Origin: Tridacna crocea
Lineage: Eukaryota > Mollusca > Bivalvia > Cardiida > Cardiidae
Assembly (NCBI GenBank): GCA_943736015.1
Contig: OX031065.1
Span: forward strand, 22,954,427-23,018,426
Reading direction: 5' to 3'
DNA: 64,000 bases
Every line of letters begins with the position of its first letter. Positions within the stretch are counted from its first letter, which is position 1. Positions 9,469-62,715 of this stretch are shown piece by piece. The position numbers and the translations under genes were made by a program. Below the pieces are notes generated by a model. The model saw nothing but the letters and a program-made list of their open reading frames with translations, was not told the origin of the DNA and did not search any database.

Positions 9469-9824
9469 TGTACCACCCAATCCTGCTTTTTAATGACCCT
9501 AAGGAAGAGGGCTTTTGATACTTTTGAAAACATTGTCAAGAGAAAGAGAAAATGCTGGTAACCAGCATTTTCTCTATCCCCCACATTGCTTTCTATTCTA
9601 TCAAAGACGGAAATCATTAACCCTTTACCAAACAACAGCATTTTGGACTTTTCCAAATCAAGAGCATTTGCAGAAGACAAAATAAACGTAACTCAAAAAT
9701 TTAAATTTGTTTCCAGCAGGGTAGAAAACATTGTGGGAAAAGCATTTTCTCCTTTTCCCACAATGTTTTCAAAAGGCTTCTATCTCAGGGTCGTAAAAAC
9801 CAGGGATTGTTTGGTAAAGGGTTA
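9469..9824 (-). mobile_element. Two TTAA hairpin MITE copies, partial and adjacent
   Basis: First half copy (9469-9616, +) has the palindrome core GCTGGTAACCAGC. The second (9617-9824, -) starts TTAACCCTTTACCAAACAAC and ends TTTGGTAAAGGGTTA. The second has lost most of one palindrome arm (GGGAAAAGCATTTTCTCC). Confidence 0.75.
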
Positions 9825-9894
9825 TTCGAGCTACAGTCAATATATTGTCTGCAAATACTGTCAATTTAGTCAAGTACACACTTTGCTGTCTGGT

Positions 9895-10110
9895 AAAGAG
9901 TTGATTCTTTACCAAATGACAAAAATCTTAGCATTGTCCAAACTGAAAGCATTCACCAGCAATAAATCAAACCTAGATCATACATGTATAAAAAGGTAGA
10001 AAGTATTGTCGAAGAAAATGTTGTTCAGCAGCATTTTCTCCTTGTCTCACAATGCTGTCAAAAAGCTCCTCTCTGGTGTTGTTGAAACACAGGATTGTTT
10101 AGTAAAGAGT
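9895..10110 (-). mobile_element. TTAA hairpin MITE, degenerate
   Basis: CTTTACCAAATGACAAAAATC at the start and GGATTGTTTAGTAAAGAGT at the end; the palindrome is eroded (GTTGTTCAGCAGCATTTTC). Confidence 0.55.
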
Positions 10111-10172
10111 GCAAGGAGGTTATTCAGAATTTCAATTCATTACTATTCATCAATGTTTTAGACTAGTCCAAC

Positions 10173-10400
10173 TTAACCCTTTACCAAATGAAAAATTTTA
10201 GACTGGCTCATATTGAAAGCATGTGCACATGACGAAACAAATGTAACTCAAAAACTGAAATTTGTTTCAAGCAGGGTAGAAAACATTTTGTGGAAAGGAG
10301 AAAATGCTGGTTACCAGCATTTTCTCCTTTTCCCGCAATGTTTTCAAAAGGTCTCTATCTCAGGGTCCTAAAAACCAGGTATTGTTTGGTAAAGGGTTAA
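10173..10400 (-). mobile_element. TTAA hairpin MITE, full length
   Basis: TTAA-to-TTAA 228 bp. Ends CCCTTTACCAAATG and TTTGGTAAAGGG; palindrome GCTGGTTACCAGC with long GGAGAAAAT / ATTTTCTCC arms. Confidence 0.85.
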
Positions 10401-10573
10401 AAGCATCTGCAGACAGTAAAACTACTATGGTACAGTTGTTGTAATAATTCTTTAGAATGGTGGAGAACAATGTGGAAAAAATGAAAATGCTGGTTACATT
10501 TTCTCCTTTTCCACAGTGTTTTCAAAAGCCTTCTGTTTTGCTTCCTTACACTCTCTCTGGATTGTGTACTACA
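10401..10573 (-). mobile_element. TTAA hairpin MITE, partial
   Basis: Directly follows the previous copy, sharing its TTAA; keeps AAAGCATCTGCAGAC, GAACAATGTGG and half of the palindrome. Confidence 0.5.
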
Positions 10574-10679
10574 GGGTTGTTAGCCACTTCAAAATGTTTT
10601 ATCAATTTAACAGTTAACTTATGAGAAAAAGCAGCTAAGAATCAAGAGTCTTCATAGATAGACTATGCTCGCCAAACAA

Positions 10680-11200
10680 GTCTCTTTTTAGGAAAGTGAA
10701 TGAATGAATGAATAGTGTTTTAAGGCCCGTCGACAACTTAGGTCATATTGGGCGCACTTACTTAGTAAACAATAATGTGAGGTGAAAATAACATACATGT
10801 CGAACAACACAAGACAAACATGATAAATGAGGAATGGATGAAACACAAAATGATGCCCCTTTTGTCGCCTTTTACGACATGCATGCTGTCACTTTTGTTC
10901 CGCCAGATGAAATGGCAGATGTGACGATCGCGGGACTGCAGTGGTTTATTCTTATACCCCCGATTAAACCACACGGGGTCCCACAGGCCAATTGATTCCC
11001 ACTCCAAACCCTATTTACATCGAGAAAAAAATATAGGATTTGGAATAAGAACTACCCAGCCTGCTGCAATCCTACGAATTACGAGGAAAGCAGCCGTTTG
11101 TCTCTAATTTTAGTCGCCTTCTACGACATGCCATAGAGAAAGGCCGAGGTCCTATTCTATACAGTAAAAACCCCCGGGACCCCACGGGGAAGGAAAGTGA
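10680..11200. repeat. Dispersed mollusc-type repeat with TCGCCTTTTACGAC blocks
   Basis: Begins near a (GAAT)n run and contains two copies of a TCGCCTT(T/C)TACGACATGC block (10865 and 11112) and two GGGxCCCACxxGG blocks. I recognise the block as a widespread invertebrate repeat but cannot place it in a named family. 11210-11900 contains only a weak MITE fragment (11340-11440). Confidence 0.45.
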
Positions 11201-12034
11201 AGGCTGTTGGTAAATGGTTGGCCATGGGAAAGGAGGGTGAAGGTGAAACAGGCTACTTGCATTTGGTCCCGCCTGCCAAATTGCATCATGCCAATGTTCA
11301 AATAGTTAAATAATGAAGGGCCATAACTCTTGGAACAGTGGTCTTTTTCCCATAATGTTTTCTATCCTATCAAAGACAAAGTCTTTCATCTGACAGACAT
11401 TTCAATTTGGACAAGGCTAATATTTAGTTGTGTTGAAAAGAGTAATGGTATTTCTAAACTTTGAGCCAGATATCTGCAACGGCTTGTGAGAATTTTAACA
11501 TGGTCACTAACATGACAACTACATTGGATCAAGTTCAGAAAGGTACAGTGTAATCAGATCTTGTATCATAAAAATAAAGGGAATTCCTGATTTCAAACAG
11601 GACAACCTCAACTCTTTTAAACACAAACTTGCTCCTTATGACTGAAAATTTCTTTACCCTGCTAAGAAAAATATGTCAAGAATCATTCATAAACATCTAA
11701 ACAGAAATTAAAATTTTACAGAAGAAATGAAGAAATACCACTTCCAATCCAATACTGAACAAAATCAATTTGTAACTGCCCTGCATTTACATCTTTAAAA
11801 ACATTGTAGCTAAAGGAGATATTGCTTCTGTGAAGCAGCTGCTCATAAAAGTTAATTACTCATTTCTAATATTACTGTATAAGGAGTTGACAAATAATTT
11901 TTCCCTTTTCCTTTCATAATGTTTCTGCTTACTTTCTGTATAATTTGTGATAGGTTTTGTATATTTCAAGTTAGCATATACATTTTGGTCAAAACACTTC
12001 ACCACATATTGCCAAGTTTAAACAAATTGAAGAG

Positions 12035-12390
12035 GAAGATTCTTGAAAACACTGTAAGAATAGGAAAACTTGCCAGCAACCAGCATTGTCTCCTTTTTCC
12101 ATATTGTTTTCTTTTTCTGCCATATTCTTTTTACCATCAACAAATCCTTTGAATTGGAACAAATTAAAACTTTATCATATTGTAAAGAATTAACCCTGAG
12201 AAAGAAAACCTTTGAAAACATTGTGGGAAAAGGAGAAAATGCTGGAAAACAGCATTTTCTCCTTTTCCCACAATGTTTTCTACCCTTTCCAAATCAAATT
12301 TCAATTTTAGATTCACATTTATTTTGTCGTTTGCAACTGCTTTCAATTTAGACTGGTCCAAAATATTGTTGTTTGGTAAAAATTTAAAGT
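12035..12390 (+). mobile_element. TTAA hairpin MITE copies, partial plus near-complete
   Basis: Fragment at 12035-12150, then a copy at 12190-12390 whose palindrome has the core GCTGGAAAACAGC; it ends TGTTTGGTAAAAATTTAA. Confidence 0.65.
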
Positions 12391-12483
12391 GTGGATCCTC
12401 GTTCATGAGCTACATGTAAATGTAACTATAAAAGGCAGAGACAAATAGTGCTCTCTATAGGAAATCCTTGAGTTTTTATTATG

Positions 12484-13193: not shown

Positions 13194-13422
13194 TTAACTC
13201 ATTACCACACGAGAAAATTTTAGACTGGTCCAAATTGAAAGCATTTGCAGACGAAAAAATAAAGGTGACTGAAAAATAGAAATTTATTCTGGAAAGGGTA
13301 TAAAACACTGTGGGAAAAGGAGAAAATGCTGGTTACCAGCATTTTCTCCTTTTCCCACAGGGTTTTCAAAAGGCTTCTTTCTCAGGGGCGTCAAAAGTAG
13401 GGATTGTGTGGTAATGGGTTAA
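13194..13422 (-). mobile_element. TTAA hairpin MITE, full length, ACCACAC-end type
   Basis: 229 bp between TTAA sites. Very like the copy at 15294-15522 (same CACACGAGAAAATTTTAGAC start and GGATTGTGTGGTAATGGG end), suggesting recent spread. A fragment precedes it at 13085-13193. Confidence 0.85.
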
Positions 13423-13459: not shown

Positions 13460-13695
13460 TCAATCCTTTACCAAACAATCACTTGTTTTGACGACCATGG
13501 AAGACAAGGCTTTTGAAAACATTGTGAGAAAAGAACAAAATGCTGGTGACCGACATTTTCTCCTTTTCCCATAATGTTTTCTACTCTTCTTAAGTCAAGT
13601 TTAAACTTTTGAGTCACACTTACAATGTATTTTGTCATCTGCACATGCTTTCGATTTGGACCAGTCTAACATTTTGTTGTTTGGTAAAGAGTTAA
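13460..13695 (+). mobile_element. TTAA hairpin MITE, near full length
   Basis: CCTTTACCAAACAATC start, GCTGGTGACCGACATTTTC imperfect palindrome, GTTTGGTAAAGAGTTAA end. Confidence 0.75.
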
Positions 13696-13876: not shown

Positions 13877-16800
13877 CTGCAAAGAAAAAATCATTATAAA
13901 CCCTTGTTTCCAACCATGCATTTTTGTCCATGTGGGTGATATGGATTTTCTCCCCGCAGAGAGTGATAATAAACCGGCCAGTTAAATTTCATTGTCTCAT
14001 TTCCAACCATCCGTTATCACCACCCAGCAAAAAGTCCATGCGGAAAAAAAAAAACAAGATGTTGGTTTTTACCGCATGGTCAAATACCCGCTTATCCATA
14101 TAATTATGGAACATGACGTCAGCAATGCTGGCGTATTTGATTATGTTTGTCTGTTTACCTGCCACTAAAAACATGGTATCCAAAGGCAGATCACCCAGAT
14201 CTCTATGACCAAAGCTCAAAACAACATAAGGATCAATTATGATTCCTCCTCCGATCCTTTTAACTTTCCTCTTTATAAACTCTTCATTAAGTTATTGTGT
14301 GATTTCGTCTTTGGAGAAGACTAAAGAAGCAGATAACAGCCATGATGAATAGGCAAAACTGAGAGATTAGCGCAGAATGTTGCAGCAGAAATCTAGTTTT
14401 AAATGCATAGGTGAAAATGGTCTACCACTTGGGTTTTATCATGCTGTAATTATCTGCTTAAGTAAAAACGCGTGGCTGGAAACGAGGGCTATCAGAGAAG
14501 CAGCTCATTTCGATAAGAGACATTAGCGAGACAATAGAATTTTAGACATGACCAAATTGAAAGCATTTACAAATGATGTATAGAATGTTACTCATAGTAT
14601 GATATTTGTCTTTGAATGAGTAAGGAACATTGTGGAAACAGGAGAAACTATACTTTTATATCCCTCTTCAACTGTTTTAGCAACTTTAAATTATGGTTCT
14701 GCAAATGCTTTTTATGCAGATGGGTCTAAAATTCTATCATGTAGTAAGGGATTTTAACCCTTTACCAAATGACAAAATCATAGACTTGTCCAAATCAAAA
14801 GCATTTGCAGATGACAAAATAGATGTGGCTCAAAAACTGAAAATTGTTTTTGGAAGGGTAGAAAACATTGTTAGGAAAAGGAGAAAATGCTGGTTACCAG
14901 CATTTTCTCCTTTTCCTACAATGTTTTCAAAAGGCTTTTTCTCAGGGTTGTTAAAAGTTGGGATTGTGTGATTAAGAGTTACAGTTGTTAAAAGGGGTTT
15001 AGTTAGGCAAAGGATTCAAAATAAGCTATGCACCTATACTTTCGAACAGCTCCTGTACATTCACAGCTGTAAGAGCACTAGTTTCTGTGAAGAAGGCATC
15101 TATTTCTTCTGCAAAGTTGCGGGCATCTGAAACAGATTAATTCCAAAATGTGATTCCTCTTTCTTTCTCAATAAATGTTTTAAATTCTGAAACTCATTTG
15201 CAGTAGATCACTATGAAAACAGGATTGTAAAGTTTGCATAGAAACATTTTATAAATTTAAAACCCTTTACCAAAAAGGTCTGTGTGTTACTGATTAACTC
15301 TTTACCACACGAGAAAATTTTAGACTGGTCCAAATTGAAAGCATTTGCAGACGACAAAATAAAGGTTACTGAAAAATTGAAATTTGTTCTGGGAAGGATA
15401 GAAAACACTGTGGGAAAAGGAGAAAATGCTGGTTACCAGCATTTTCTCCTTTTCCCATAGTGTTTTCAAAAGGCTTATTTCTCAGGGGCGTCAAAAGTAG
15501 GGATTGTGTGGTAATGGGTTAAGAGAACAAAAGCTTTTGAAGATATTCTGGGAAAAAGAGGAAATGCTTGTAACAGCATTTACTCCATTTCCAACAATAT
15601 TTTCTCACCTTCTACATCCTATCATTTCAGCCACATTTATCATATCATCTGCAAAAAGATTTTGATATGGACAAGGCTTCAAATTTTTTGTAAGTAAAGA
15701 ATTACTACAAGAACTCATTATGAAAGGAGAAGCCCCTCAATATGAAAGTGTTCTTATTTCTGCAACAAAGATTTCTATGGAGGTCTGCTTTATGATAAAA
15801 AAAGTCAAGAAGAGTAATGACATATAATGATTTTCTCTGATCTACCTCTTCCCACTGAAACAGAATTCTTGTTATCTTAAAGCTCTAAGGAAGAAGATTT
15901 TCAGAAACATTGTTGGAAAAAAAGAAAATGCTGGTTACCAGATGATAACCAATGGTAACCAGCATTTTCTCCTTTTCCCACAATGTTCTCTATCCTACCT
16001 GAGGCTAATCTCATTATTTGAACCATGTCTTACTTGTCATCTGAAGCTGTTATGAATGAAGAACAATCACAATTTTTCTTGCAGGTAAAGGGTAAACAGA
16101 GAAATAACTCCAGAAATATGGAGAGTTACAGACCATGTACACTGTACCTGTCTAAACATGGTCTATCTGTATCTAATTTTTAGGTTAATGCATTTTATAC
16201 CTCTGATCTTATGCTCAAGACAGAAACCAAAACAATCCTTGTGTACTGCATAATTATGTCCTCGATATGATTTATCTATATTTACCTTATGCTATGACAA
16301 ACAGTCCAACAGTGAAATGGAGGGGCAACAGGATGGACAACCACACATTTGGACAACCACGCATTTGACAAGGTAAACTTCTCTCCCCCCACCCACCCTT
16401 ATTCCTGCCCATTTCTCATTTTGCTACCCCCCCCCACCCCCACAAAAAAAAATGAGGGCCCTGGATCGATCACCTGAATTTCTAAGAGGACCGTAGCCAA
16501 TTTTTTTCTTTTTTTGAGGTATTGAAACACTGGAAAAAAAATATTATTTTGCCAAGCAATTTTCAAAAGGTCACCTGTAAAAGTCACTTCAAATTCTGAC
16601 AAGCAGTTTCAGAAAAAGAGAATTTTTAGAAGTTCTTAATTTTCGTATCTATAGTGCAAATAGCCCCCCTTTCACCAGAGCCATGTTTCTAGATCTATCA
16701 GAATTTCCAAAACAAATTTTGAAAAGGGTCATTCAAGAAACATTTCTGCAAAATCATTTCAAAATCAGTGGTTTCAGAGAAGAAGAATTTTCAAGAATTT

Positions 16801-24009: not shown

Positions 24010-24256
24010 CAGACCTTTTACCAAACAATCCGCGGTTTTCTACGACCTAGAGGAAGAAGCCTTCTGAAAACATTTTGGGAAAAGGAGAAAATGCTGGTAA
24101 CTGGCATTTTCTCCTATTTGCAAAACGTTTTCTAGATCTAGATCTACTCTTCTAAATTTAAATCAAGTTTCAAATTTTGAGTAATGTTTATTTTATCGTC
24201 TGAAAATGCTTTCAATTCGGACAAGTCCATTTTTATGTCGTTTGGTAAAGACTTAA
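24010..24256 (+). mobile_element. TTAA hairpin MITE, full length
   Basis: CCTTTTACCAAACAATCC start, GCTGGTAACTGGC centre, TCGTTTGGTAAAGACTTAA end. Confidence 0.75.
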
Positions 24257-24280
24257 GTCTTCAACAAGCTAATTTTACAC

Positions 24281-24490
24281 TCTAACCCGATTTTAAAAAA
24301 TTTGCAGACGATGTCCAAATTACATGCTGCTATTTGAAATCAAGAGTTTGTTTTTGATAGGGTAGAAAAAGGAAAAAAAAAAAAAAAAATGCAGGTCATC
24401 GGCATTTTCTTCTTTTTTCCACAATGTTTGCAAAAGGTTTCTTCCCAAGGGTCGTTATCTAAAACTCGGGATTGTGTGATATAGGGTTAA
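24281..24490 (-). mobile_element. TTAA hairpin MITE, degenerate
   Basis: TTTGCAGACGATG, an A17-19 run where the arm should be, core GCAGGTCATCGGC, end GGATTGTGTGATATAGGGTTAA. Confidence 0.6.
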
Positions 24491-26650: not shown

Positions 26651-27417
26651 AAAGGTGGCCCTTCAGATTTTGGGACGAAAATTTTACAAAAAAAAACCAA
26701 AAAAATCATCCTTTTACTCCCAAAGCCTTATAATTTCATTCATTAAACCCCAGTAGTCGAAAACCATCTGACAACTGGATAAATTAGAGATTTACTACAG
26801 CCAATGTCGACACTGAAGAGAAACAAGGTCTATTTTCACATGAGCAACTTGCTCATTTACATACCGGAAATATACAGACGAAGCTTCAAACATAGCATCC
26901 AAAGTTCTAGACATTATAGAAAATAATTACATGTTTATGTTATGGAATTTAATAGTCATTAGTCACGTGCAAGTCACTCAACATTCCCACAATGCTTTTT
27001 CGATTTTGGCGGGAAATCTAAAAATAGCTTAAGAGGCTAAGTAGCCTTTTAACTCATTACCAAACGACAATGTTTTAGTCTTGTCCATATCGACAGCATT
27101 TGCACACGACAAAATGAAAGTGACTGGAAATTTGAAATTAGTTTTGTGAAGGGTATAAAACAGTGTGGGAAAAGGAGAAAATGCCTGTTACCAGCATTTT
27201 CTCCTTTTCCCACAATGTTTTCAAAAGGTTTCTTTCCAGGGGCGTCAAAAGTAGGGATTGTGTGGTAATGGGTTAAGGGAATACCACCAAAAAAATTTTT
27301 TAAGTAATTTTATGATTCTTAATTAATTATGATCTGTATTGTTTTTTCATATAAATTTCATTGACATATATATTTTTTATTTTGGTGTGATGTGAAAATT
27401 CTAAATACCCAGCTTTA
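26651..27417 (+). mobile_element. AAAGGTGG-TIR element, copy 1, interrupted by a MITE
   Basis: Starts AAAGGTGGCCCTTCAGATTT and ends AAATACCCAGCTTT; ~543 bp without the MITE inserted at 27053-27272. It shares its last bases with copy 2, so the two are in direct tandem. Confidence 0.8.
27049..27276 (-). mobile_element. TTAA hairpin MITE with proven TTAA target duplication
   Basis: Occupied site reads CCTTTTAA then the element, then TTAAGGGAAT. The empty site in the neighbouring element (27814-27821) reads CCTTTTAAGGGAAT. So a 220-bp insert (27053-27272) duplicated exactly TTAA. Ends CTCATTACCAAACG and GTGTGGTAATGGG. Confidence 0.95.
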
Positions 27418-29203: not shown

Positions 29204-29431
29204 TTAACCCTTTACCAAACAATCCCTGTTTTTTTTCGACCCTAACATAGAAGCCTTTTGAAAACATTGTTTTAAAAGGAGGATATGCTGGTAACCAGCA
29301 TTTTCTCCTTTTCCTACAATGTTTTCTACCCTGCTGGACACAAATTTCAATTTCTAAGTTACCTTTGTTCGGTCCTCTGCAAGTGTTTTTAAGTTGGAGG
29401 TCCCAAATTTTGTTGTTTAGTAAAGAGTTTT
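29204..29431 (+). mobile_element. TTAA hairpin MITE, full length
   Basis: TTAACCCTTTACCAAACAAT start, GCTGGTAACCAGC centre with an imperfect outer arm, TGTTGTTTAGTAAAGAGTT end. A half copy follows to ~29530. Confidence 0.8.
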
Positions 29432-54900: not shown

Positions 54901-57066
54901 AAATAGTGATAGTTAAGTTTTTTCTATTCCATACCAAATTAAATTTGTGTTTTTTAGCAGGATGAGGAATAAATGGTCATCTGCAAATGTTTCCATGTTT
55001 GATAAGCCTACAGTTATGTCTCTTAATGCAGAGATAAGACATTTGCCAGTCATTTGGGACTCATATCTAATGTCTTTTGCAAATCCCTTCAATTTGGACA
55101 TAAGTTTTTGTTTTATTATAAGGGTTAATAAAACCTTTAAATCTTTACAAAGCAACATAAAATTTAGACTCGTCCAAATTGATAGCACTTACAGAGAACA
55201 GATGTAGCTATGTAACTCAAAAATTGAAATTTGTCTCCAGCAGGCCAGAAAGGGCCAGAAAGCATTTTGGGAAAAGGAGAAAATGCTGGTTACCAGCATT
55301 TTCTCCCTTTTCCCAAAATGTTTTCAAAAGGCTGCTATCTCAAGGTTGTAAAAAACAGGGATTCTTTTGTAAAGAGTTAAAACTTAACATTTTTGTGATT
55401 TATTCTTTTACAGATAATGAATTAAGGGAAAGGATAAATACAGTACACAAGGAAGTTAGACCATACAAATCTATAATGCTCCAAGGGAGGGGGAGTATGT
55501 TGTTTTCTTTACTATTTGACTCTTTAACAAACAACAAAATTTTTAGTCTGGTCCATTTGGAAGCACTTGCAGACAACAAAATAAATGAGAATCAAAAATT
55601 GAAATTTGAGTTGGAAAGGCTAGAAAACATTGTGGGAAAAGGAAAAAATGCTGGTGACCAGCATTTTCTCCTTTTCCCACAATGTTTTCAAAAGGCTTCT
55701 CTCTGTGGGTCATTGAAAGTCAGTACTTCGTGGTACATTTGGAACACCTCGGTCAATCTTTCGATCCAGCCTAAGATGTATGCCAATGGAATAATACATG
55801 TATGTTAAAAAACTTGACATGCATAGCCAGAACGGTTATTCGACAGATACTCCCCACTACATAGTTCCCGAAATGTTCCAAATGACGTCAACTAGTAATC
55901 CTGTAGAATGACAGTAAGTCTAACTATAGCAGCATAAATGGCTGAATTAAGGACTTGCATTGATAACGCACTTGAAAAATTGGGCTGGATCGAAAGATTG
56001 GCCGAGGTGTTCCAAATGTTTTCGCTATAATGATGTCATTGTATTTGTTGTTATGGGGATTTTGTTGTTCCTTCCGGAAGTAGTCCGTCAGCATACATCC
56101 GAGGCTTGATTCATTGAGTTGACTGATGTGTGGTAAAGAGTTAACTCTTTTACCATATGACAAAATTCTGTATTATTCAAAACATAAGCAGACAACATGT
56201 TTAGTGTAGCTACGTGTAAAATGCTGTTTTCTGTCTGATACAGCAGAAAATATTGTGGGAAAAGGAGAAATTACTGATCACTAGCATTTTCTCCTTTTCC
56301 CACTATGTTTTTAACCCATTACCACACAATCCCTGCTTTTGACTACCCTGAGAAAGAAGCCTTTAGAAAAGCCAGTAGCTTAGAAAGAAAATTGTGAGGA
56401 ATATTGTAAAAGAGACTCCAGGAAAGTATGGATAGGTGGTCTGGCCACCTTGGTATAACGGAAATAATGATGAAAACGGCATTAAACACCATACAATCAA
56501 TACAATAAATGTAAAATCTTGTTGTCATGTGGGCGGTTATGATGAGGTTTATACCCTTCCACAAACAAATTTGATCCGTGATTAACCCTTTACCAAACAA
56601 TCCCTGGTTTTTACAACCCTGAGAAAGAAGCCTTTTGAAAACATTGTGGAAAAAGGAGAAAATGCTGGTAACTAGCATTTTCTCCTTTTCCCACAATGTT
56701 TTCTACCCTTCTCTACACAAATTTCAATTTTTGAGTTACATTTAGTTTGTTGTCTACAAGTGCTTTCAATTTGGACCAGTCTAAAATTTTGTCATGTGAT
56801 AAAGAGTTTAGAGTTAAACAATTACTTGAATACAAAATAAGTTAACACCGTCTTATACAGGTACTGTGGAATATGTACAGAAAAAGTTTAAGAAGAGGAG
56901 GCTGCTGAAAAAACTAATACGGAATCCTGATGCTGAATTAGATAGTGACGAAGAGCAAATTCTAAAGGAAAACCCAGAACTATGTGTGGAAGAAAACATA
57001 GAAATTGAAAATGAAGATTTAAGTATAGATGAAACTGTTGAAAAAGTACCAGGGAACAGTACTTGA
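33883..57066 (+). CDS. PUS3-like tRNA pseudouridine synthase (TruA family), 13-14 exons
   Basis: Exons: (33883-33951 tentative), 36750-36814, 38861-39001, 39900-39960, 41658-41766, 42989-43118, 44208-44268, 45081-45314, 47597-47660, 49055-49117, 50317-50374, 52101-52156, 55414-55494, 56861-57066. Every junction is GT..AG and all phases agree, giving ~465 residues against 481 in human PUS3. Landmarks: VMYIGQKYAGMNYQ, TIEKALFRALTITRLIEDR, the catalytic-Asp motif SRTDVGVSA (D104), VYKMWFPKGDLD with the conserved Tyr (Y200), GNHDFRNF, and FLMHQIRCMMG. Known role of the family: isomerises U38/U39 of the tRNA anticodon arm to pseudouridine. Odd: V follows the catalytic Asp where PUS3 has K (bacterial TruA has A), and a long acidic tail ends the protein. 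PUS1/PUSL1 are less likely given the IEDR, HDFRN and HQ(I/V)RCMM strings. Confidence 0.9.
34190..34310 (-). mobile_element. TTAA hairpin MITE, half copy
   Basis: Perfect palindrome core with GCTAGTTACCAGC, then the right side GGTTGTTAGAACTCTGGATT; left side missing. Confidence 0.6.
34310..35305. other. PUS3-like intron, mostly unrecognised
   Basis: GATCG-rich words recur at 35040-35270 (e.g. CACTTGATCG four times), a weak short-period repetition. No gene seen. Confidence 0.4.
35309..36139 (-). mobile_element. AAAGGTGG-TIR element, copy 4, interrupted
   Basis: Starts TTTAAAGGTGGGTATTTAG and ends GAAGGGCCACCTTTAA. About 280 bp at 35466-35745 are foreign and split the AGGCTACGT|AGCC block. Confidence 0.75.
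35466..35745. repeat. GCGGATTCCGC-rich insertion
   Basis: Inside TIR element copy 4. Carries repeated near-palindromes AGGCGGATTCCGC, GGCGGATAACGCC, AATCCGCC and TCCGCTTAA. No clean target duplication found. Confidence 0.6.
36470..36702 (-). mobile_element. TTAA hairpin MITE, degenerate palindrome
   Basis: CTAAACCAAACAAGAAAATTC start, GGATTGTGTGGTAAAGGGTCAA end; the palindrome is broken (GAGTATTCTACTATCATTTTC). Confidence 0.65.
36750..36814 (+). CDS. PUS3-like exon 2
   Basis: Acceptor TTTTCAATAG, 65 bp, ends in phase 2 at GTAAGA. Encodes EMLVKYFCSSTDGETQNNA then GSG; a poorly conserved N-terminal part. A MITE starts only 20 bp after the donor. Confidence 0.6.
36834..37046 (+). mobile_element. 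TTAA hairpin MITE 20 bp from a splice donor
   Basis: TTAACCCATTACCACACAAT start, GCTAGTAACCATC centre, TCATTAGGTAATGGATAA end. Begins 20 bp after PUS3-like exon 2. Confidence 0.8.
37064..37291 (+). mobile_element. TTAA hairpin MITE, GCTCG-type core, CCCAAAC ends
   Basis: TTAACCCTTTCCCAAACAAG start; core TTGCTCGTAACAAGCAA; end ATTCGGGAAAGGGTTAA. Confidence 0.87.
37420..37590 (+). mobile_element. TTAA hairpin MITE fragment
   Basis: Eroded; GAACATTTTGGGAAAAG, GCTGGCAACCAG and GGTAAAGGATT remain. Confidence 0.45.
37634..37861 (-). mobile_element. TTAA hairpin MITE, GCTCG-type core, perfect palindrome
   Basis: TTAATCCTTTCCCAAACAAC start; core TTGCTCGTTACGAGCAA is perfectly palindromic; end TTGTTTGGGAAAGGGTTAA. 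Confidence 0.9.
37862..38840. other. PUS3-like intron 2, unrecognised part
   Basis: No repeat or gene recognised; ORFs here have no protein-like signature. Confidence 0.4.
38861..39001 (+). CDS. PUS3-like exon 3
   Basis: 141 bp. Encodes SNRVRLALKVMYIGQKYAG, then NTIEKALFRALTITRLIED, the first strand and helix of the TruA fold. Confidence 0.9.
39125..39352 (-). mobile_element. TTAA hairpin MITE, full length
   Basis: CTTTACCATACAAGAAAATT start, GCTTTTTACCAGC centre, GGATTGTGTGGTAAAG end. In PUS3-like intron 3. Confidence 0.75.
39447..39675 (+). mobile_element. TTAA hairpin MITE, full length
   Basis: TTAACCCTTTACCACACAAT start, GCTGGTAACTAGC centre, TTACTTGGTAATGCATTA end. Preceded at 39410-39446 by a scrap of the AGACTGCA hairpin family. 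Confidence 0.75.
39685..40065. mobile_element. MITE fragments on both sides of PUS3-like exon 4
   Basis: 39685-39870 is an eroded + copy. 39970-40065 is a short - copy that has lost the palindrome altogether (TTTTAGACAGGTCCAAATTG joined to ACAGGGATTGTTTGGTAAAG). Exon 4 lies between them. Confidence 0.6.
39900..39960 (+). CDS. PUS3-like exon 4 (catalytic Asp)
   Basis: 61 bp. KTCNYGRVSRTDVGVSAVAQ; the Asp of RTDVGV is the family nucleophile. Donor GTAAGA. Confidence 0.9.
40126..40600 (+). mobile_element. tRNA-like SINE split by a MITE
   Basis: A-box-like GGATAACTCAGTGGTTA (40133-40150) is separated from the B-box-like GGTTGTGAGTTTAATATC (~40405) by the MITE at 40153. The body GCCTCTCACC..TGCATGTGAG, TGTCAGTACTAGT and GAAAAAGC matches the SINE at 52398. 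Confidence 0.65.
40153..40384 (+). mobile_element. TTAA hairpin MITE, CTCCATAGATA-end type, inside a SINE
   Basis: TTAACCCTTTACTCCATAGA start; core TTGCTCGTAACAAGCAA; far end GGTAAAAAGGATAA is worn. The subterminal sequence differs from the main type and matches the copy at 47756. Confidence 0.7.
41098..41250 (-). mobile_element. AGACTGCA hairpin family, copy
   Basis: ACATTTTGTGCAATCTCATC, TTGATCTACACTGTCCGC, then AGCACTTAGCAGCC..GGTTAA. One arm diverged. Shares its last TTAA with the next MITE. Confidence 0.6.
41247..41475 (+). mobile_element. TTAA hairpin MITE, full length
   Basis: TTAACCCTTTCCCAAACAAT start, GCTGGTAACCAGC perfect core, TCGTTTGGGAAAGGGTTAA end. Combines CCCAAAC ends with the GCTGG core. 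Confidence 0.88.
41472..41640 (-). mobile_element. TTAA hairpin MITE, palindrome deleted
   Basis: Shares TTAA with the previous copy; CCCTGTACCAAATGACAAAA start, then only ATGTTTTCAAAAGC and a worn end. Confidence 0.55.
41658..41766 (+). CDS. PUS3-like exon 5
   Basis: 109 bp. VVCFDVSKEYFKWHNAF and a variable Ser/Glu-rich end; donor GTATCA in phase 1. A MITE begins ~15 bp after the donor. Confidence 0.85.
41781..42010 (-). mobile_element. TTAA hairpin MITE ~15 bp from a splice donor
   Basis: TTAACCCATTACCAAACGAC start, GCTGGTTACCAGC core, GTGTGGTAATGGGTTAA end. Begins 14 bp after the exon 5 boundary of the PUS3-like gene. Confidence 0.88.
42011..42870. other. PUS3-like intron 5, unrecognised part
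   Basis: ACAACAACAGCCATCC / CAACAACAACCATCC short repetition near 42245-42285; otherwise nothing recognised. Confidence 0.4.
42870..42963 (-). mobile_element. TTAA hairpin MITE, right half only
   Basis: Starts inside the palindrome (GTAACCAGCATTTTC) and keeps the right end GATTGTGTGGTAAAAGGTTAA. Confidence 0.65.
42989..43118 (+). CDS. PUS3-like exon 6
   Basis: 130 bp. Low-complexity start, then KINHLLPKDIRVIAWAVVP, matching ILNRVLPPDIRILAWAPV of human PUS3. Confidence 0.9.
43183..43413 (-). mobile_element. TTAA hairpin MITE, full length
   Basis: AACTCTTTACCAAACGCC start, GCTGGTTACTAGC centre, GTGTGGTAAAGAGTTAA end. Scraps of another copy lie at 43445-43500 and 43615-43680. Confidence 0.75.
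43770..44100. repeat. Dispersed repeat with GTCTGTCC and CGGGGGTATTAAGTC ends
   Basis: TATACTCCGCAAACGAATG at one side, a CTGTCTGTCCATGTGTC stretch, and GGCGGGGGTATTAAGTC at the other. I recognise the type as widespread in invertebrates; family name unknown. Confidence 0.5.
44208..44268 (+). CDS. PUS3-like exon 7
   Basis: 61 bp. VKVASKVYKMWFPKGDLDIE, matching the SCLERTYRYFFPRADLDI region; donor GTAAAT. Confidence 0.9.
44328..44552 (+). mobile_element. TTAA hairpin MITE, full length
   Basis: CTCTTTACCACACAATTCC start, GCTGGTAACCAGTATAATC imperfect palindrome, GTGTAGTAAAGAGTTAA end. Confidence 0.75.
44598..44960 (+). mobile_element. Two adjacent TTAA hairpin MITE copies
   Basis: 44598-44824 is complete but diverged (GCTGGTAACCAGC core, CTTTGGTTAATTGTTAA end). 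44821-44960 starts TTAACCTATTACCACAAAAT and lacks the palindrome. Confidence 0.65.
45081..45314 (+). CDS. PUS3-like exon 8
   Basis: 234 bp, 78 codons, the longest exon. Contains GNHDFRNFSKL and FTVTGNRFLMHQIRCMMGIL, the C-terminal half of the catalytic domain. Confidence 0.92.
45462..45654 (+). mobile_element. TTAA hairpin MITE, left end missing
   Basis: AGAAAGAAAACTTTGG, GCTGGTAATCAGAATC, CATTTGGTAAAGACTTAA. Confidence 0.6.
45753..46156. mobile_element. Two TTAA hairpin MITE copies, opposite orientation
   Basis: 45753-45972 (+) has unusual end CCCTATGGTGCACAGTAG with GTTGGTAGTCAGC centre; 45998-46156 (-) has lost the left palindrome arm. Confidence 0.6.
46324..46542 (-). mobile_element. 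TTAA hairpin MITE, full length
   Basis: TTAACCCTTTACCAAATGAC start, GCTGGTAACTAGC centre, GTTTGGTAAAGGGTTAA end. Confidence 0.85.
46653..46881 (-). mobile_element. TTAA hairpin MITE, full length, near consensus
   Basis: 229 bp. TTAACCCTTTACCAAACAAC start, GCTGGTTACCAGC core with near-perfect arms, TATTTGGTAAAGGGTTAA end. Confidence 0.9.
46878..47263 (+). mobile_element. Partial plus full TTAA hairpin MITE
   Basis: 46878-47032 is worn (ACTAGTAATCATC). 47035-47263 is full: TTAACCCATTACCACACAAT, GCTGGTTACCAGC, GTTTGGTAATAAGTTAA. Confidence 0.8.
47325..47551 (-). mobile_element. TTAA hairpin MITE, full length
   Basis: CTCTTTACCAAATGACAAAA start, GCTGGTTACCAGC perfect core, GTGTGGTAAAGAGTTGAA end; 46 bp before PUS3-like exon 9. 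Confidence 0.8.
47597..47660 (+). CDS. PUS3-like exon 9
   Basis: 64 bp. IIDEMLDVVKNPTKPHYRKF, matching IIDELLNIEKNPQKPQYSMA in human PUS3. Confidence 0.9.
47756..47991 (+). mobile_element. TTAA hairpin MITE, CTCCATAGATA-end type
   Basis: TTAACCCTTTACCCCATAAG start and ATCTATGGAGTAAAGGATTAA end; core TTGCTCGTCAGGAGCAG within AACATTGTGG / CCACAATGTTTTC arms. Confidence 0.8.
48012..48230 (-). mobile_element. TTAA hairpin MITE, one arm lost
   Basis: TTAACTGTTTACCAAACGAC start, palindrome reduced to GTTCCCAGCATTTTCTGC, GTGTGGTAAAGGGTTAA end. Confidence 0.75.
48236..48358 (+). pseudogene. mariner transposase fragment (HTH region)
   Basis: Open frame with AAFKDGKTNVRDEHQPGRL, matching the FKxGRTxVxDExRSGRP segment after the N-terminal helix-turn-helix of mariner (mos1/SETMAR-type) transposases. 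No catalytic part nearby; a small remnant squeezed between two MITEs. Confidence 0.65.
48366..48592 (-). mobile_element. TTAA hairpin MITE, full length
   Basis: TTAACTCATTACCAAATGAC start, GCTGGTTACCAGCATG centre, GTGTGGTAATGGGTTAA end. Confidence 0.85.
48590..48790 (+). mobile_element. TTAA hairpin MITE, 3' truncated
   Basis: Shares TTAA with the previous copy; AACACAAAATCCCAAC start, GCTGGTAACCATC centre, ends after TTTGAATTTGGACTG. Confidence 0.6.
49055..49117 (+). CDS. PUS3-like exon 10
   Basis: 63 bp. SALCLHETTFEPDIKWRYTS, matching PLVLYDCKFENVKWIYD; donor GTGAGT. Confidence 0.88.
49185..49420 (-). mobile_element. TTAA hairpin MITE with internal GGAGAAAA duplication
   Basis: TTAACCCGTTACAAAATGAC start. 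The upper arm reads GGAGAAAAGGAGAAAATGC, a 9-bp duplication not present in the lower arm. GTGTGGTAATGGGTT end. Confidence 0.8.
49500..49728 (-). mobile_element. TTAA hairpin MITE, full length
   Basis: TTAACTCATTACCAAATGAC start, GCTGGTTACCAGC core, GTATGGTAATGGGTAA end. Confidence 0.8.
49918..50227 (+). mobile_element. Partial plus full TTAA hairpin MITE
   Basis: 49918-49998 is a left half. 49999-50227 reads TTAACCCTTTACTACTCAAT, GCTGGAAACCAGC and CTGTGCTGTAAAGGGTTAA. Confidence 0.75.
50317..50374 (+). CDS. PUS3-like exon 11
   Basis: 58 bp, phase 1 to phase 2, SSYGKILSELKQNLTESL. Another frame is also open here, but only this one agrees with both neighbouring exons. Confidence 0.8.
50421..51160 (-). 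repeat. Reversed, diverged ~165-bp-type array with its own tail
   Basis: Begins TTAGCTCCATTGGCC (hairpin end, read backwards) and continues into units with AAATTATAGCC, GGTCAAATTTGGCCC and GGGCACAAGTTTTA. Reverse-complemented, these give the CTTGTGACCCC..GGGGCCAGTTTTGAC order of the 1-9 kb array. Confidence 0.65.
51413..51640 (+). mobile_element. TTAA hairpin MITE, full length, near consensus
   Basis: TTAACCCATTACCACACGAT start, perfect GCTGGTAACCAGC core, TCATGTGGTAAAGAGTTAA end. Confidence 0.9.
51670..51903 (-). mobile_element. TTAA hairpin MITE, full length
   Basis: TTAACCTTTTACCAAACAAC start, GCTGTTTACCAGC (one-sided change) centre, GTTTGATAAAGGGTTAA end. Confidence 0.85.
52101..52156 (+). 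CDS. PUS3-like exon 12
   Basis: 56 bp. TAVLKSMLDQLESTEVET, matching THMLYSMLQGLD. Embedded between two stretches of the ~165-bp-type repeat. Confidence 0.85.
52398..52630 (+). mobile_element. tRNA-like SINE
   Basis: GTAGACCAGTAGTTAGTATA (A box, worn), GGTTGTAGGTTTGATACAC (B box), GCCTCTCACCTCTGATGCAT, GAGTCAGTACTAGTGTGAAA. Same body as the 40126 SINE. Confidence 0.65.
53066..53294 (-). mobile_element. TTAA hairpin MITE inserted in the array
   Basis: 221-bp insert between TTAA (53066-53069) and TTAA (53291-53294). The flanks join into a normal array unit (..TTGTTAAGAT / GCCTTTGGGTCAAAATTGG), a second nested insertion agreeing with TTAA duplication. Confidence 0.88.
53818..54364 (-). mobile_element. 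AAAGGTGG-TIR element, copy 5
   Basis: Starts TTTAAAGGTGGGTACTTAG, ends GAAGGGCCACTTTTAAA; ~546 bp, intact block order, with the empty-site sequence CCCTTAAAAGGCTACG. Confidence 0.8.
54518..54751 (+). mobile_element. TTAA hairpin MITE, full length
   Basis: TTAACCCTTTACCAAACAAC start, perfect GCTGGTAACCAGC core, TCGTTTGGGAAAGGGTTAA end. A worn copy precedes it (54370-54517). Confidence 0.88.
54759..54915 (+). mobile_element. AGACTGCA hairpin family, copy with TTAA ends
   Basis: TTAACCCATAGGCTGCTAAG start; AGATCAAGATCAGACTGCAC / GTGCAGTCTATCTTTGATCT palindrome; ends GTTAA. About 157 bp. Confidence 0.7.
55140..55380 (-). mobile_element. TTAA hairpin MITE, CATTTTGGG arm variant
   Basis: Both outer arms read CATTTTGGG / CCCAAAATG instead of CATTGTGGG / CCCACAATG, i.e. 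the arms changed together. Core GCTGGTTACCAGC, end TTTTGTAAAGAGTTAA. Confidence 0.8.
55414..55494 (+). CDS. PUS3-like exon 13
   Basis: 81 bp. NELRERINTVHKEVRPYKSI then MLQGRG; donor GTATGT. MITE copies end 33 bp before it and begin ~20 bp after it, and the exon's frame is open into both. Confidence 0.85.
55515..55745 (-). mobile_element. TTAA hairpin MITE, worn ends
   Basis: CTCTTTAACAAACAACAAAA start, GCTGGTGACCAGC core, ACTTCGTGGTA end. Begins ~20 bp after PUS3-like exon 13. Confidence 0.7.
56148..56312 (-). mobile_element. TTAA hairpin MITE, truncated, next to a scrap
   Basis: CTCTTTTACCATATGACAAAA start; palindrome ATTACTGATCACTAGC; then joined to the left end of another copy (AACCCATTACCACACAATCC, 56312-56370). 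Confidence 0.6.
56582..56810 (+). mobile_element. TTAA hairpin MITE, full length
   Basis: TTAACCCTTTACCAAACAAT start, GCTGGTAACTAGC core, TCATGTGATAAAGAGTTTA end; 50 bp before PUS3-like exon 14. Confidence 0.85.
56861..57066 (+). CDS. PUS3-like exon 14 and stop
   Basis: 206 bp. TVEYVQKKFKKRRLLKKL, then an acidic tail (DAELDSDEEQILKENPEL ...) and TGA. A basic patch followed by acid-rich residues is usual for the tail; it could aid nuclear targeting, which is inference. Confidence 0.88.
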
Positions 57067-57460: not shown

Positions 57461-57468
57461 CCACCTTC

Positions 57469-57695
57469 AACTCATTACCAAACGACAATATTTTAGGCTC
57501 GTCCAAATCGGCAGGATTTGCAGACGACAAAATGGAAGTGACTGAAAATTTGAAATTTGTTTTGAGAAGGATAGAAAACATTGTGGGAAAAGGAGAAAAT
57601 GCTGGTAACCAGCATTTTCTCCTTTTTCCACAATGTTTTCAAAAGGCTTCTTTTCCAAGAACGTCGAAAAGAGAGATTGTGTGGTAATGGGTTAA
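57469..57695 (-). mobile_element. TTAA hairpin MITE, full length
   Basis: CAACTCATTACCAAACGAC start, perfect GCTGGTAACCAGC core, GTGTGGTAATGGGTTAA end. Confidence 0.85.
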
Positions 57696-58589: not shown

Positions 58590-59204
58590 CTATGCCGTAT
58601 CGCTTGATGACGTCACATCTGTCATTGCAGGCGAGAGTGTGACGGCATCATTATATTCCTTAACCAGCATATTACTGGCGATGCCTACATCGCTAGATAC
58701 GCCACCTTGTTCTTTCACACTTTCCAAGTTATCTAAGGAACGTTTTCTCTTCACTACATGTGTAACGATCCTGAAGTCTGTGTGATGATGTCTAGTCTGA
58801 GAGCAGGGCTTCTGCAAGCTTTTATAGAGAGAATATATTCTAGGAATGAAGAGACAAGCCACTGTAACTGAAGCATTGAGTAACAATGATGCTGCTAGGA
58901 TAGTCACTTTAGCATCAGCTCTCGATGTTGTGAAGTAGGTTGGTAAGAAGGTGATCCAGATAAGTAAAGTGGTATCCACGCAATATGCGATATACCGGGT
59001 TTCCTTATAGTTATCCGGTAACTTCCGGGTCTTGAACGCATAAAATGTACATACGAGTACTAAAATGAGATTGTAACATAACGATGACAGCAGGCCAGCT
59101 TTGGGTAGAGAACAAAACAACTCCACAAACTTCTCTGTTCTGCTTGGCATCTGTAGTCGTACTTCAGGAGGCTCTAAACTGGTAGTTATAATTACTATGG
59201 CCAC
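58590..59204 (-). CDS. Class C GPCR (metabotropic glutamate receptor-like), last coding exon
   Basis: Acceptor AATTCAAG, then 204 codons and TAG (58592-58590). It covers the end of TM4 (VAIVIITTSLEPPEV), the extracellular-loop Cys (ELFCS), TM5 (SSLCYNLILVLVCTFYAFKT), the signature KTRKLPDNYKETRYIAY, TM6 (LLIWITFLPTYF) and TM7 (ASLLLNASVTVACLFIPRIY). A ~75-residue cytoplasmic tail follows with basic (VVKRKRS) and Ser/Thr-rich ends. The match to mGluR TM5-TM7 is strong. Ligand class cannot be told from this part: venus-flytrap, Cys-rich and TM1-TM4 exons are not visible in 59.2-64 kb and probably lie beyond the window or were lost. Confidence 0.85.
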   Translation of the reverse strand: MAIVIITTSLEPPEVRLQMPSRTEKFVELFCSLPKAGLLSSLCYNLILVLVCTFYAFKTRKLPDNYKETRYIAYCVDTTLLIWITFLPTYFTTSRADAKVTILAASLLLNASVTVACLFIPRIYSLYKSLQKPCSQTRHHHTDFRIVTHVVKRKRSLDNLESVKEQGGVSSDVGIASNMLVKEYNDAVTLSPAMTDVTSSSDTA

Positions 59205-59448
59205 CTTGAATTAAAAAAAGAAATACATGTATATATGAATGGTAGAGAAAGTTCAAAGCAGTTCGAATGTATTGTTTAAAATTTGTGAACCATTACGCAA
59301 AAAGGAACCATCTGGGAATTCTGTTCATCAATTAGATGAAAACCGATCAACAATAATGCAGGTCAGTAAAAGTTGATAATTAAAAAATGGTTGTATAACA
59401 AGGTACAATGGCCACTTTTCATACAGAAAATATCATTAAAGCGAAAGG

Positions 59449-59787: not shown

Positions 59788-59817
59788 CCTCGACAATTTT
59801 ATCGTTGATTAAACAAC

Positions 59818-60345: not shown

Positions 60346-60547
60346 ATCTTTCCTTTTTCCACAATGCTTTCTACTCTTTCAATGACGAATACTGTCAACT
60401 GAGCTGAATTTGATTTGCTCTCAGCATAGGCTTTTATTTTGGATGAGTCTGATTTGTCTTCTAATAGGGAGTTAAGGGTTTATTCTTGTGACCTGCTCTG
60501 AGTGGATTGAATAACGACCATTGACATTCCAAATACATCATTAAAAT

Positions 60548-60770
60548 CATTACCGAAAGACAATAATTTAGACTTGTCCAAATTGAAAGAATTTGCAGAC
60601 GACAAAATAAAAACGGCAGAAAATTTAAAGTTTGTTTTGTGAAGAGTAGAAAACATTGTGGGAAAATGAGAAAATGCTGGTTACCAGCATTTTCTCCTTT
60701 TCCCACAATGTTTTCTAACGGCTTCTTTGTCAGGGTCGTCAAAAGTAGGGTTTGTGTGGTAATGGGTTAA
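60548..60770 (-). mobile_element. TTAA hairpin MITE, full length
   Basis: ATCATTACCGAAAGACAATA start, GCTGGTTACCAGC core, GTGTGGTAATGGGTTAA end. A half copy lies at 60345-60480. Confidence 0.8.
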
Positions 60771-60837
60771 CCTTTTTTTCCGAAATAGCTAAAATGAAAT
60801 TTTCAGTTCGGTGGTAAAAACCCTAATATTGCTATCT

Positions 60838-61135: not shown

Positions 61136-61361
61136 TTAATTCCCCATATGACAATATTTTAGACTAGTTCAGTTTGACAGCACAAGCAGACGACAAAATG
61201 TATATAGCACAAATGATGGGAATTTTATCAGAGAGTCTAGAAAACGTCCTGGGAAAAGGAGAAAATGCTGGTTTCTAGTATATTCTCCTTTTCCCAGAAT
61301 GCTTTCTACAGACCAACTTGTTAGGGTCGTTAAAACTAGGGATTGTGTGGTAAAGGGTTAT
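61136..61361 (-). mobile_element. TTAA hairpin MITE, GTCCTGGG arm variant
   Basis: TTAATTCCCCATATGACAAT start; arms AACGTCCTGGGAAAAGG / CCTTTTCCCAGAATGC; GCTGGTTTCTAGT centre; GTGTGGTAAAGGGTTA end. Confidence 0.75.
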
Positions 61362-61394
61362 CTTGTTCAGAAGGATAAGGATTAAAAGGAAACA

Positions 61395-61530
61395 TTAACC
61401 CTTAGTCTGCTAAGCATGACTCACTGACCTTTTCCGGATAGTGTAGATCAAGATCAGACTGCATAGAACATGCAGTCTGATCTTGGATGTACAATTACTG
61501 ATCTGATATTATTTTCAAAAACATAACTGT
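61395..61530 (+). mobile_element. AGACTGCA hairpin family, copy with TTAA end
   Basis: TTAACCCTTAGTCTGCTAAG start; AGATCAAGATCAGACTGCAT / ATGCAGTCTGATCTTGGAT palindrome. Confidence 0.75.
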
Positions 61531-61757
61531 AACTCATTACCACACAATCCCTACTTTTGACACCCCTGAGAAAGAAGCCTTTTGAAAACACTGTAGGAAA
61601 AGGAGAAAATGCTGGTAACCAGCATTTTCTAATTTTCCCACAGTGTTTTCTACCCTTTCCAGAACAAATTTCAATTTTTCAGTCACCTTTATTATGTCAT
61701 CTGCAAATGCTTTCAATTTGAACCAGTCTAAAATTTTGTCGTTTGGTAAAGAGTTAA
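61531..61757 (+). mobile_element. TTAA hairpin MITE, full length
   Basis: AACTCATTACCACACAATCC start, GCTGGTAACCAGC core, TCGTTTGGTAAAGAGTTAA end. Confidence 0.85.
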
Positions 61758-62044
61758 AATAGCAATATTTGGTTCTTTTACTTTCGAATTGAACATTTAA
61801 TATCAGTTATTTAGGAGAATAAAGTTTAATCCCCTACTGGCAGATAATATTTGATGCGACAAAAAGTGATACAAATTTACACATCTCACAAACATTTGAG
61901 AGCAACGAAATCATAGTTTTATATATGAGAGAAAAAAATGGAATAGGAGAAATCTCTTGTACAACCTTTTGTTTCTTTTCCACAATGTTTTAAAAATGTT
62001 TAGCCTTGCACTGCAGGGAGCATAAATGCCATATATGTAGAGTG

Positions 62045-62275
62045 GTTGAATTTTTTTTACCACTTCACCGTTTGTTTTTACGACCCTTAAATATTGCCTT
62101 ATAAAAACAAAAAAAAAAATAAAATAAATAAATGCTGTTAAACAGCATTTCCTCCTTTTTCAGCAATGTTTTATCTTTTTATCCTATCAAGAATAAAAAA
62201 TAGGTTGCATTAAACCATCTGACAATGTTTCATTTGTGTAACTAGTTCCGACAATTCTAAAAGAGGAGCTGTGTG
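62045..62275 (+). mobile_element. TTAA hairpin MITE, worn, with GCTGTT core
   Basis: ACCACTTCACCGTTTGTTTT left; core TGCTGTTAAACAGCA keeps its pairing although G-to-T in one arm and C-to-A in the other differ from the consensus. Confidence 0.55.
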
Positions 62276-62276
62276 A

Positions 62277-62480
62277 TTAACGCGCACCCTGCTAATTGCG
62301 TCTCAATGATACTGTGCAGACAGTGTAGGATGAGATTAGACTGCAGGCAACGTGCAGTCTGATCTCGAATTCATATTGTCAAATTAGGAGACATTTCCCC
62401 CGAAGAATGCCATAGAAATAGCAAAATTATCGGTTTTACCATCTGCTTGAAAGTTTCGTTTCACGCATTTAACAGGTTAA
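62277..62480 (+). mobile_element. AGACTGCA hairpin family, diverged copy
   Basis: TTAACGCGCACCCTGCTAAT start; GATGAGATTAGACTGCAGGC / GTGCAGTCTGATCTCGAAT; ends ACAGGTTAA. Confidence 0.65.
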
Positions 62481-62486
62481 GAGTCA

Positions 62487-62715
62487 ACTCTTAACCAGAC
62501 GACAAAATTTTAACCCTGACCAAATCGAAAGCATTTGCAGACCACAATTCCAATATGGTTCAAATGGTGTAACTGTTTATTGAAACGATAAAAAACATTG
62601 TGGGAAAAGGAGAAAATGCTGGTTACCAGCATTTTCCCCTTTTCCCACAATGTTTTCCAAAGGCTTATTTCTCTGTGGGTCATTGAAAGTCGCCATTGTG
62701 TGGTAAAGGGTTTAA
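62487..62715 (-). mobile_element. TTAA hairpin MITE, full length
   Basis: AACTCTTAACCAGACGACAA start, GCTGGTTACCAGC core with near-perfect arms, GTGTGGTAAAGGGTTTAA end. Confidence 0.8.

Follow-up and report, generated by a model that had tools for sequence, protein, structure and literature searches.

A probable piggyBac-type family of palindromic miniature transposons fills roughly a fifth of the Tridacna crocea genome

A 64,000-bp stretch of the Tridacna crocea genome (assembly GCA_943736015.1, contig OX031065.1, forward-strand positions 22,954,427 to 23,018,426; hereafter, the window) is crowded with copies of a short, TTAA-flanked repeat built around a central palindrome, which raises the questions of what this repeat is, how it is moved and why its palindrome has been kept. 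Sequence comparisons indicated that the 229-bp units are very probably a family of non-autonomous piggyBac miniature inverted-repeat transposable elements (MITEs), presumed to be moved in trans by a transposase encoded elsewhere, and that lineages that went on multiplying tended to keep the palindrome, which suggests selection on the amplifying copies. The locus bears on the open question of how MITEs come to outnumber their partners by orders of magnitude, the ratio being extreme in this case, with about ten partner copies seen and about 1.5 million MITE copies.

Copies in the window were counted as non-overlapping matches (E <= 0.001) to a profile made from 20 window copies. This search yielded 98 copies, of which the plus strand carries 51 and the minus strand 47, with at least 100 of the 229 positions of the model covered in 83 and at least 200 in 55, while ten shuffled windows searched with the same profile gave no matches. 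Family matches covered 34% of positions 9469-62715. An earlier note, made from the sequence of the window, had described a dense family in both orientations, as was found here, and its count of 60-70 copies was too low. Raw profile matches at E <= 0.01 numbered 189, many of them representing the palindrome matching itself on the opposite strand. The two copies that the note had singled out (46653-46881 and 51413-51640) were present as described. Most copies end in TTAAC(C/T)C(T/A)TTACCA, where the note had given TTAACCC(T/A)TTACCA. The longest frame from ATG to stop among the 55 long copies was 67 amino acids and none was coding, in agreement with the note's remark that no copy has an open reading frame. 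The features referred to most often below are as follows.

9463-62712, no strand: interval holding all 98 window copies
15294-15522, plus strand: full-length MITE copy, second young subfamily
46653-46881, plus strand: full-length MITE copy, young subfamily (40 genome copies at 98-100%), TTAA at both ends
46760-46826, no strand: palindrome of the 46653 copy, centre 46793; 2 of 33 pairs mismatched in the subfamily consensus
51413-51640, minus strand: full-length MITE copy, near-perfect palindrome
51467-51535, no strand: palindrome of the 51413 copy, centre 51501; 34 pairs, 1 mismatch

A search beyond the window, as the earlier note had suggested, showed that the family is genome-wide. The assembly comprises 1,048,827,098 bases in 31 contigs, 18 large contigs summing to about 1.048 Gb, and 36 stretches (80 kb in total) were hand-picked at round coordinates across these 18 contigs. 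The family covered 22.8% of this sample (bootstrap 17.8-27.7%) and 0 bases of its reversed-sequence control. The sample held 117 copies, 45 of them with at least 200 model positions, and 4 of the 36 stretches were empty. Scaled to the genome, these figures imply about 1.5-1.65 million copies, fragments included, and the family fills roughly a fifth of the genome. A share of about 23% of a gigabase genome would be, to our knowledge, among the largest known for a single non-autonomous DNA element. An exact 31-bp core of the palindrome occurred 183,553 times in the whole assembly (14 times in the window and 13 times in the 80-kb sample); the same pattern read backwards occurred 0 times in the assembly, and viral contigs searched with the core pattern gave 0 exact matches.

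Copy density was 1.53 per kb in the whole window and 1.46 per kb in the sample, with a higher value of 1.84 per kb in the interval 9463-62712. The density of the window is not a local peculiarity, although copies are somewhat more closely packed in the MITE-bearing interval than in the sample. That excess, together with the 20 of 97 neighbouring pairs of window copies that overlap or lie at most 10 bp apart, would fit an amplification peculiar to the window, whether in tandem or by self-targeting. Such an explanation is extremely improbable, given that copies are about as dense in the 80-kb sample and that exact cores abound genome-wide. Moreover, abutting ends numbered 10 in 144 kb, where random choice of TTAA predicts 9-19; this count fits random choice and therefore provides no evidence for self-targeting, and both self-targeting and tandem growth were rejected as mechanisms.

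The insertion sites bear on the type of element. Among the 55 long window copies, TTAA was located within 8 bp of both ends in 28, of one end in 20 and of neither end in 7. The young subfamilies kept it at both ends: 39 of 40 copies did so in the 46653 subfamily (all scored genome matches) and 33 of 33 in the 15294 subfamily (the window copy and 32 others, from 40 full-size matches less 7 that had gaps or lacked end bases). In the filled/empty pair L031/L033, the empty site in L033 was a single TTAA; a second pair (L033/L014) was less clean, an intact TTAA being missing at its empty site. The TTAA ends and the clean filled/empty pair represent a piggyBac-type insertion footprint. In a published description, piggyBac-type MITEs are defined by terminal repeats of 12-19 bp with a CC(C/T)T motif (PMC2872659). 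The corresponding motif was CCCT in the 46653 subfamily and CTCT, CTCA or CCCA in other MITE copies. The family amplified recently: the 40 copies of the 46653 subfamily carried 87 substitutions from their consensus in total, and an exact 77-mer was common to 82 copies.

TTAA targets are also used by Sola3. Mobilisation by a different TTAA-cutting superfamily, Sola3 or Kolobok, was considered, since Kolobok and its T2-MITEs use TTAA as well, according to their description (PMC6004289). Judged from the termini and the piggyBac genes present, this origin is very unlikely, although no search aimed at Kolobok or Sola3 genes was made. Kolobok ends start with AG/RR (PMC6004289), whereas this trait of T2-MITEs was not seen after the TTAA of the MITE, whose termini read C(C/T)C; in addition, the genome contains piggyBac elements of one clade whose right end matches that of the MITE.

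The genome contained 118 matches to piggyBac DDE genes, of which 30 loci were analyzed and grouped into nine clusters at 60% identity. Two related elements, C15 and C7, were identified as candidate partners. The C15 element (C15:28711023-28718224) measured 7,202 bp as joined and belongs to a 7.2-kb type with about nine genome copies, while the C7 element (C7:18507265-18513640) measured 6,376 bp and was seen in one copy. The C15 and C3 copies were 99.6-99.9% identical, their homology stopping at TTAA and their flanks differing. Around seven C15-type copies, the left end was found in 6 (with TTAA in 5) and the right end in 7 (with TTAA in 6); for the C17 copy, the stretch examined around it revealed no left end. 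C15-type ends inspected later had TTAA at three more right ends, and one more left end was damaged beside TTAA. A genome search with the C15-type ends retrieved near-full matches to the left end 7 times and to the right end 9 times; each end also had 2 short matches. In five loci of almost identical sequence, the main exon of the C15 type read through 492 residues without a stop, and an acidic frame upstream is probably the first exon of the transposase gene. DDE_Tnp_1_7 matched the C15 type, read from its C5 copy, at E 2.7e-88 and C7 at E 4.4e-89, and the C7 transposase was 80% identical to that of the C15 type. When the C15-type protein was aligned with piggyBac 6x67 and piggyBat 9c0f, Asp positions were kept, which we take to be the catalytic residues.

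The ends of these elements resembled the MITE on one side. Of the 36 bases that follow TTAA at the MITE right end, 30 matched the C7 right end and 26 that of C15, while five other piggyBac elements, from four other clusters, matched at 11-18 of 36 positions of the MITE right end and at 7-14 of 36 of its left end. Those four clusters had clear TTAA ends with different terminal repeats and were rejected as partners, their ends not matching the MITE. The terminal repeat of C7, found at both of its ends, was 18 bp long with TTAA included, and the terminal motifs of the partners were CTCA and CCCA in C15 and CTCT in C7. A right-end unit of ~37 bp was present, as judged by eye, in about four direct repeats in both partners and once in the MITE; in the partners, these repeats are a possible transposase-binding array. 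MITE copies were also nested inside partner elements. The assignment of C15 and C7 as partners is weakened by their left ends, which matched either MITE end at only 13-15 of 36 positions and in which no homologue of the left half of the MITE was seen beyond a terminal repeat of ~14 bp. A partner closer still may be present in the genome or may have died out, as the analysis covered 30 of the 118 matches and the ends of all clusters but four (L009, L010, L036 and L038). The earlier proposal of a piggyBac gene flanked by the same ends consequently held for the right end and the terminal repeats, and failed for the left end beyond the ~14-bp repeat. The wider suggestion of a piggyBac source acting in trans was supported by the TTAA-specific, non-coding nature of the family and by the related piggyBac elements, mobilisation itself being inferred from them.

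Two further observations concern piggyBac sequences in this genome. In L015, a piggyBac of another cluster (776-3761; ends CCCTTTATATAC) lies inside a MITE copy, which it splits near model positions 83-100. Decayed piggyBac DDE fragments are clustered at C13:4.48-4.61 Mb (~130 kb) and at C8:56.71-56.76 Mb (~50 kb).

In the proposed mechanism, the MITE unit would be cut out at its TTAA-flanked terminal repeats and pasted into TTAA sites elsewhere by a piggyBac transposase, for which the C15/C7 clade is the most likely source. The right ~40 bp of the MITE, equivalent to one unit of the direct repeat of the partners, would plausibly act as its transposase-binding end, and the source copies that kept the palindrome would be those that multiplied.

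The earlier note had described a near-perfect central palindrome of ~65 bp, and the consensus of 98 long copies indeed contained one of 67 bp (positions 108-174) in which 33 of 33 pairs match and which is not built from the terminal repeats. Folding of the 51413 copy gave z = -15 for the palindrome alone as DNA and z = -11 for the whole copy as RNA. The latter value, which denotes a strong predicted RNA stem, is what would be expected if the hairpin acted as RNA, that is, as a substrate of Dicer or ADAR, a possibility that the earlier note had raised, or as a microRNA substrate. However, a search of the window with Rfam gave no match at gathering score, and a role as RNA for the host would not explain retention in amplifying lineages; the conservation described below suggests instead that selection acted on the DNA of the lineages that amplified, and a function as RNA, for which foldability is the sole support here, is improbable.

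The alignments were restricted to copies with at least 190-195 aligned positions, CpG sites were excluded from the counts of private mutations and from those on the tree, and the tree comprised 208 copies after removal of identical rows (215 to 208). Divergence in the palindrome was 0.45-0.60 of the rate elsewhere at every divergence level (151 copies). Mere decay of dead copies predicts private mutations that are indifferent to the palindrome. In young copies, such mutations fell in it in 13 of 39 cases in one subfamily, where 11.6 were expected, and in 8 of 42 cases in the second, where 12.6 were expected. Pooled, these 21 of 81 mutations, against 24 expected, agreed with a uniform distribution (p = 0.47) and departed from the ratio of the internal branches (p = 0.006). 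On the tree, the per-site ratio of palindrome to outside was 0.36 for internal branches, whereas older terminal branches gave 0.70 and young ones 0.56. Terminal branches as a whole differed from internal ones at p = 3.3e-9, and at p = 1.6e-6 once the variable stretch 68-106 was removed. Ratios of internal to terminal changes were 0.14-0.21 in blocks of the palindrome and 0.20-0.40 in other blocks, the outside block 46-67 being as low as the palindrome tip. A McDonald-Kreitman-like table built on two consensus sequences was not significant alone (21:60 vs 4:26, p = 0.20), and the argument for selection is therefore carried by the tree comparison; there, the young terminal branches taken alone did not differ significantly from the internal ones (p = 0.06), which weakens it. 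Since private mutations struck the palindrome as by chance and internal branches carried fewer changes in it, the palindrome appears to have been kept in the lineages that multiplied.

Counts of joint changes bear on whether pairing between the arms matters. Compensated cells numbered 62, against 18.4 expected under independence. A symmetric two-pair variant of the palindrome was present in 9,565 exact copies and the corresponding arm hybrid in 10. At one pair alone, one-arm changes numbered 1,392 and both-arm changes 33, where 2.6 were expected. Internal branches carried four complementary paired switches, at four different pairs, and two non-complementary ones, and control pairings offset by 1-3 positions gave 0-3 paired switches per offset. 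These counts overstate the number of events because related copies are not independent. Several observations speak against a requirement for pairing. One founding event could explain the contrast of 9,565 to 10, and the two-pair variant may be the ancestor of some of the 33 symmetric single-pair copies. Another 87 changes on internal branches affected a single arm, all 33 pairs were intact in only 29 of 208 copies, and the young, successful 46653 subfamily has 2 of its 33 pairs mismatched. Finally, the arms of nearest relatives paired slightly better with each other (0.894) than the arms of the same copy (0.876).

Two other explanations for the maintenance of the palindrome were weighed against these counts. 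What was conserved may have been the sequence itself, serving as a symmetric site for protein binding or as an enhancer of transposition, with pairing irrelevant. The tolerance of two mismatched pairs in the young subfamily, the equally good pairing of arms from nearest relatives and the 87 single-arm versus 4 complementary changes on internal branches all fit this possibility, which we rate as less probable than the hairpin discussed below; the joint switching of the arms in some subfamilies (9,565 symmetric versus 10 hybrid) and the excess of compensated cells run counter to it, although a symmetric dimer site could also give both. Alternatively, a mutational process such as arm-to-arm correction or gene conversion, instead of selection on mobility, might maintain the palindrome. 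The 33 symmetric single-pair variants would be consistent with such a process, as would the slower change of the palindrome on terminal branches too (0.56-0.70). It is nevertheless unlikely: resident copies showed 1,392 one-arm against 33 two-arm changes at the same pair, private young mutations struck the palindrome as by chance, and pairing within a copy was no better than between nearest relatives. Arm-to-arm correction was accordingly not supported by either the one-arm versus two-arm counts or the nearest-relative pairing.

With selection on amplifying copies as the preferred reading, we give about an even chance to the palindrome acting in cis, as a hairpin or cruciform, to make excision or a net gain in copies more likely. 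By way of example, the hairpin might fold while the lagging strand is single-stranded and so couple excision to replication. The more specific proposal of a cis-acting "amplifier", in which the palindrome as a hairpin or cruciform ties piggyBac excision to replication so that moves tend to yield a net gain, is speculative and a good deal less probable. If it were true, selection for such an amplifier at the level of the element would have allowed a 229-bp unit to grow to about 1.5 million copies while driven by about ten full-length partners. The combination of a candidate partner with an open main exon and one internal feature kept by amplifying lineages makes a cis-requirement for MITE success directly testable.

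Other features of the window were recorded alongside the MITE copies. Arrays of a ~166-bp satellite, partly with a 332-bp period, occur within 1-8922, no MITE copy being found before 9463, and tandem repeats of 45-46 bp at 63562-63901 lie in a GC-richer stretch. An open frame at 58590-59210 (minus strand) matches the transmembrane domain of class C G-protein-coupled receptors (7tm_3, E 8e-26), and part of the window is therefore probably an intron of such a receptor gene. A 215-residue open frame at 55161-55808 (plus strand) spans two MITE copies, had no Pfam match at E 0.001 and is probably due to chance. With the three full-length copies given above, the following list covers the 55 long copies and the partial copy 46879-47028; 43 of the 98 copies are shorter.

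9617-9824, plus strand: MITE copy
9902-10110, plus strand: MITE copy
10173-10399, plus strand: MITE copy
11994-12192, minus strand: MITE copy
13194-13422, plus strand: MITE copy
13463-13695, minus strand: MITE copy
14754-14981, plus strand: MITE copy
15862-16094, minus strand: MITE copy
17913-18135, plus strand: MITE copy
18946-19172, plus strand: MITE copy
20005-20225, minus strand: MITE copy
20851-21044, plus strand: MITE copy
21701-21925, minus strand: MITE copy, symmetric palindrome variant, slightly degraded
21935-22141, minus strand: MITE copy
22402-22627, minus strand: MITE copy
24013-24255, minus strand: MITE copy
24258-24489, plus strand: MITE copy adjoining the 24013-24255 copy
27049-27275, plus strand: MITE copy
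29205-29429, minus strand: MITE copy
33523-33750, plus strand: MITE copy
36470-36700, plus strand: MITE copy
36835-37043, minus strand: MITE copy
37065-37291, minus strand: MITE copy
37634-37860, plus strand: MITE copy, symmetric two-pair palindrome variant, both arms changed
39127-39351, plus strand: MITE copy
39448-39673, minus strand: MITE copy
39686-39876, minus strand: MITE copy
41248-41475, minus strand: MITE copy
41781-42009, plus strand: MITE copy
43180-43412, plus strand: MITE copy
44328-44552, minus strand: MITE copy
44597-44824, minus strand: MITE copy
45755-45979, minus strand: MITE copy
46324-46541, plus strand: MITE copy
46879-47028, minus strand: partial MITE copy adjoining the 46653-46881 copy, one TTAA in common
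47036-47263, minus strand: MITE copy
47326-47549, plus strand: MITE copy
48012-48229, plus strand: MITE copy
48366-48591, plus strand: MITE copy
49185-49419, plus strand: MITE copy
49500-49728, plus strand: MITE copy
50000-50227, minus strand: MITE copy
51670-51902, plus strand: MITE copy
53067-53293, plus strand: MITE copy
54519-54751, minus strand: MITE copy
55138-55379, plus strand: MITE copy
55517-55736, plus strand: MITE copy
56583-56808, minus strand: MITE copy
57468-57694, plus strand: MITE copy
60544-60769, plus strand: MITE copy
61141-61360, plus strand: MITE copy
61530-61757, minus strand: MITE copy
62485-62712, plus strand: MITE copy

A literature search turned up no such family, the comparison having been made against the literature only, without a repeat library. 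According to a survey of bivalve transposons, MITEs occupy a considerable share of bivalve genomes (PMC10294476). Pokey and its mPok MITEs in Daphnia, compared by description, likewise belong to the piggyBac superfamily and include MITE derivatives, but Pokey inserts at a specific site in ribosomal DNA as well as elsewhere (PMC4912750). The T2-MITEs of Xenopus share the TTAA target and are long-lived and predominant in that genome, whereas their ends (AGGRR), which do not match the terminal bases found here, and their Kolobok transposase set them apart (PMC6004289). BogoMITE of Blepharisma resembles the present family in having few autonomous copies and MITEs in the thousands, but belongs to the Pogo superfamily, with about 8,000 copies and a TAA/TTA target (PMC9942856). 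The likeness to the coral CMITE of Acropora, which rests on its published structural description and not on a comparison of sequences, extends to piggyBac-type MITEs with TTAA duplications and tandem copies, to an interior that is more conserved than the terminal repeats and whose origin is unexplained, and to a partner, AmiPB1, that, like C15 and C7, shares little with the MITE beyond the ends (PMC2872659). In contrast to the 229 bp and about 1.5 million copies found here, CMITE is about 100 bp long and has about 1,600 copies (PMC2872659). The terms "palindrom", "hairpin" and "secondary structure" are absent from the available part of the CMITE text (PMC2872659), whereas the interior of the T. 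crocea family is a near-perfect palindrome with co-varying arms.

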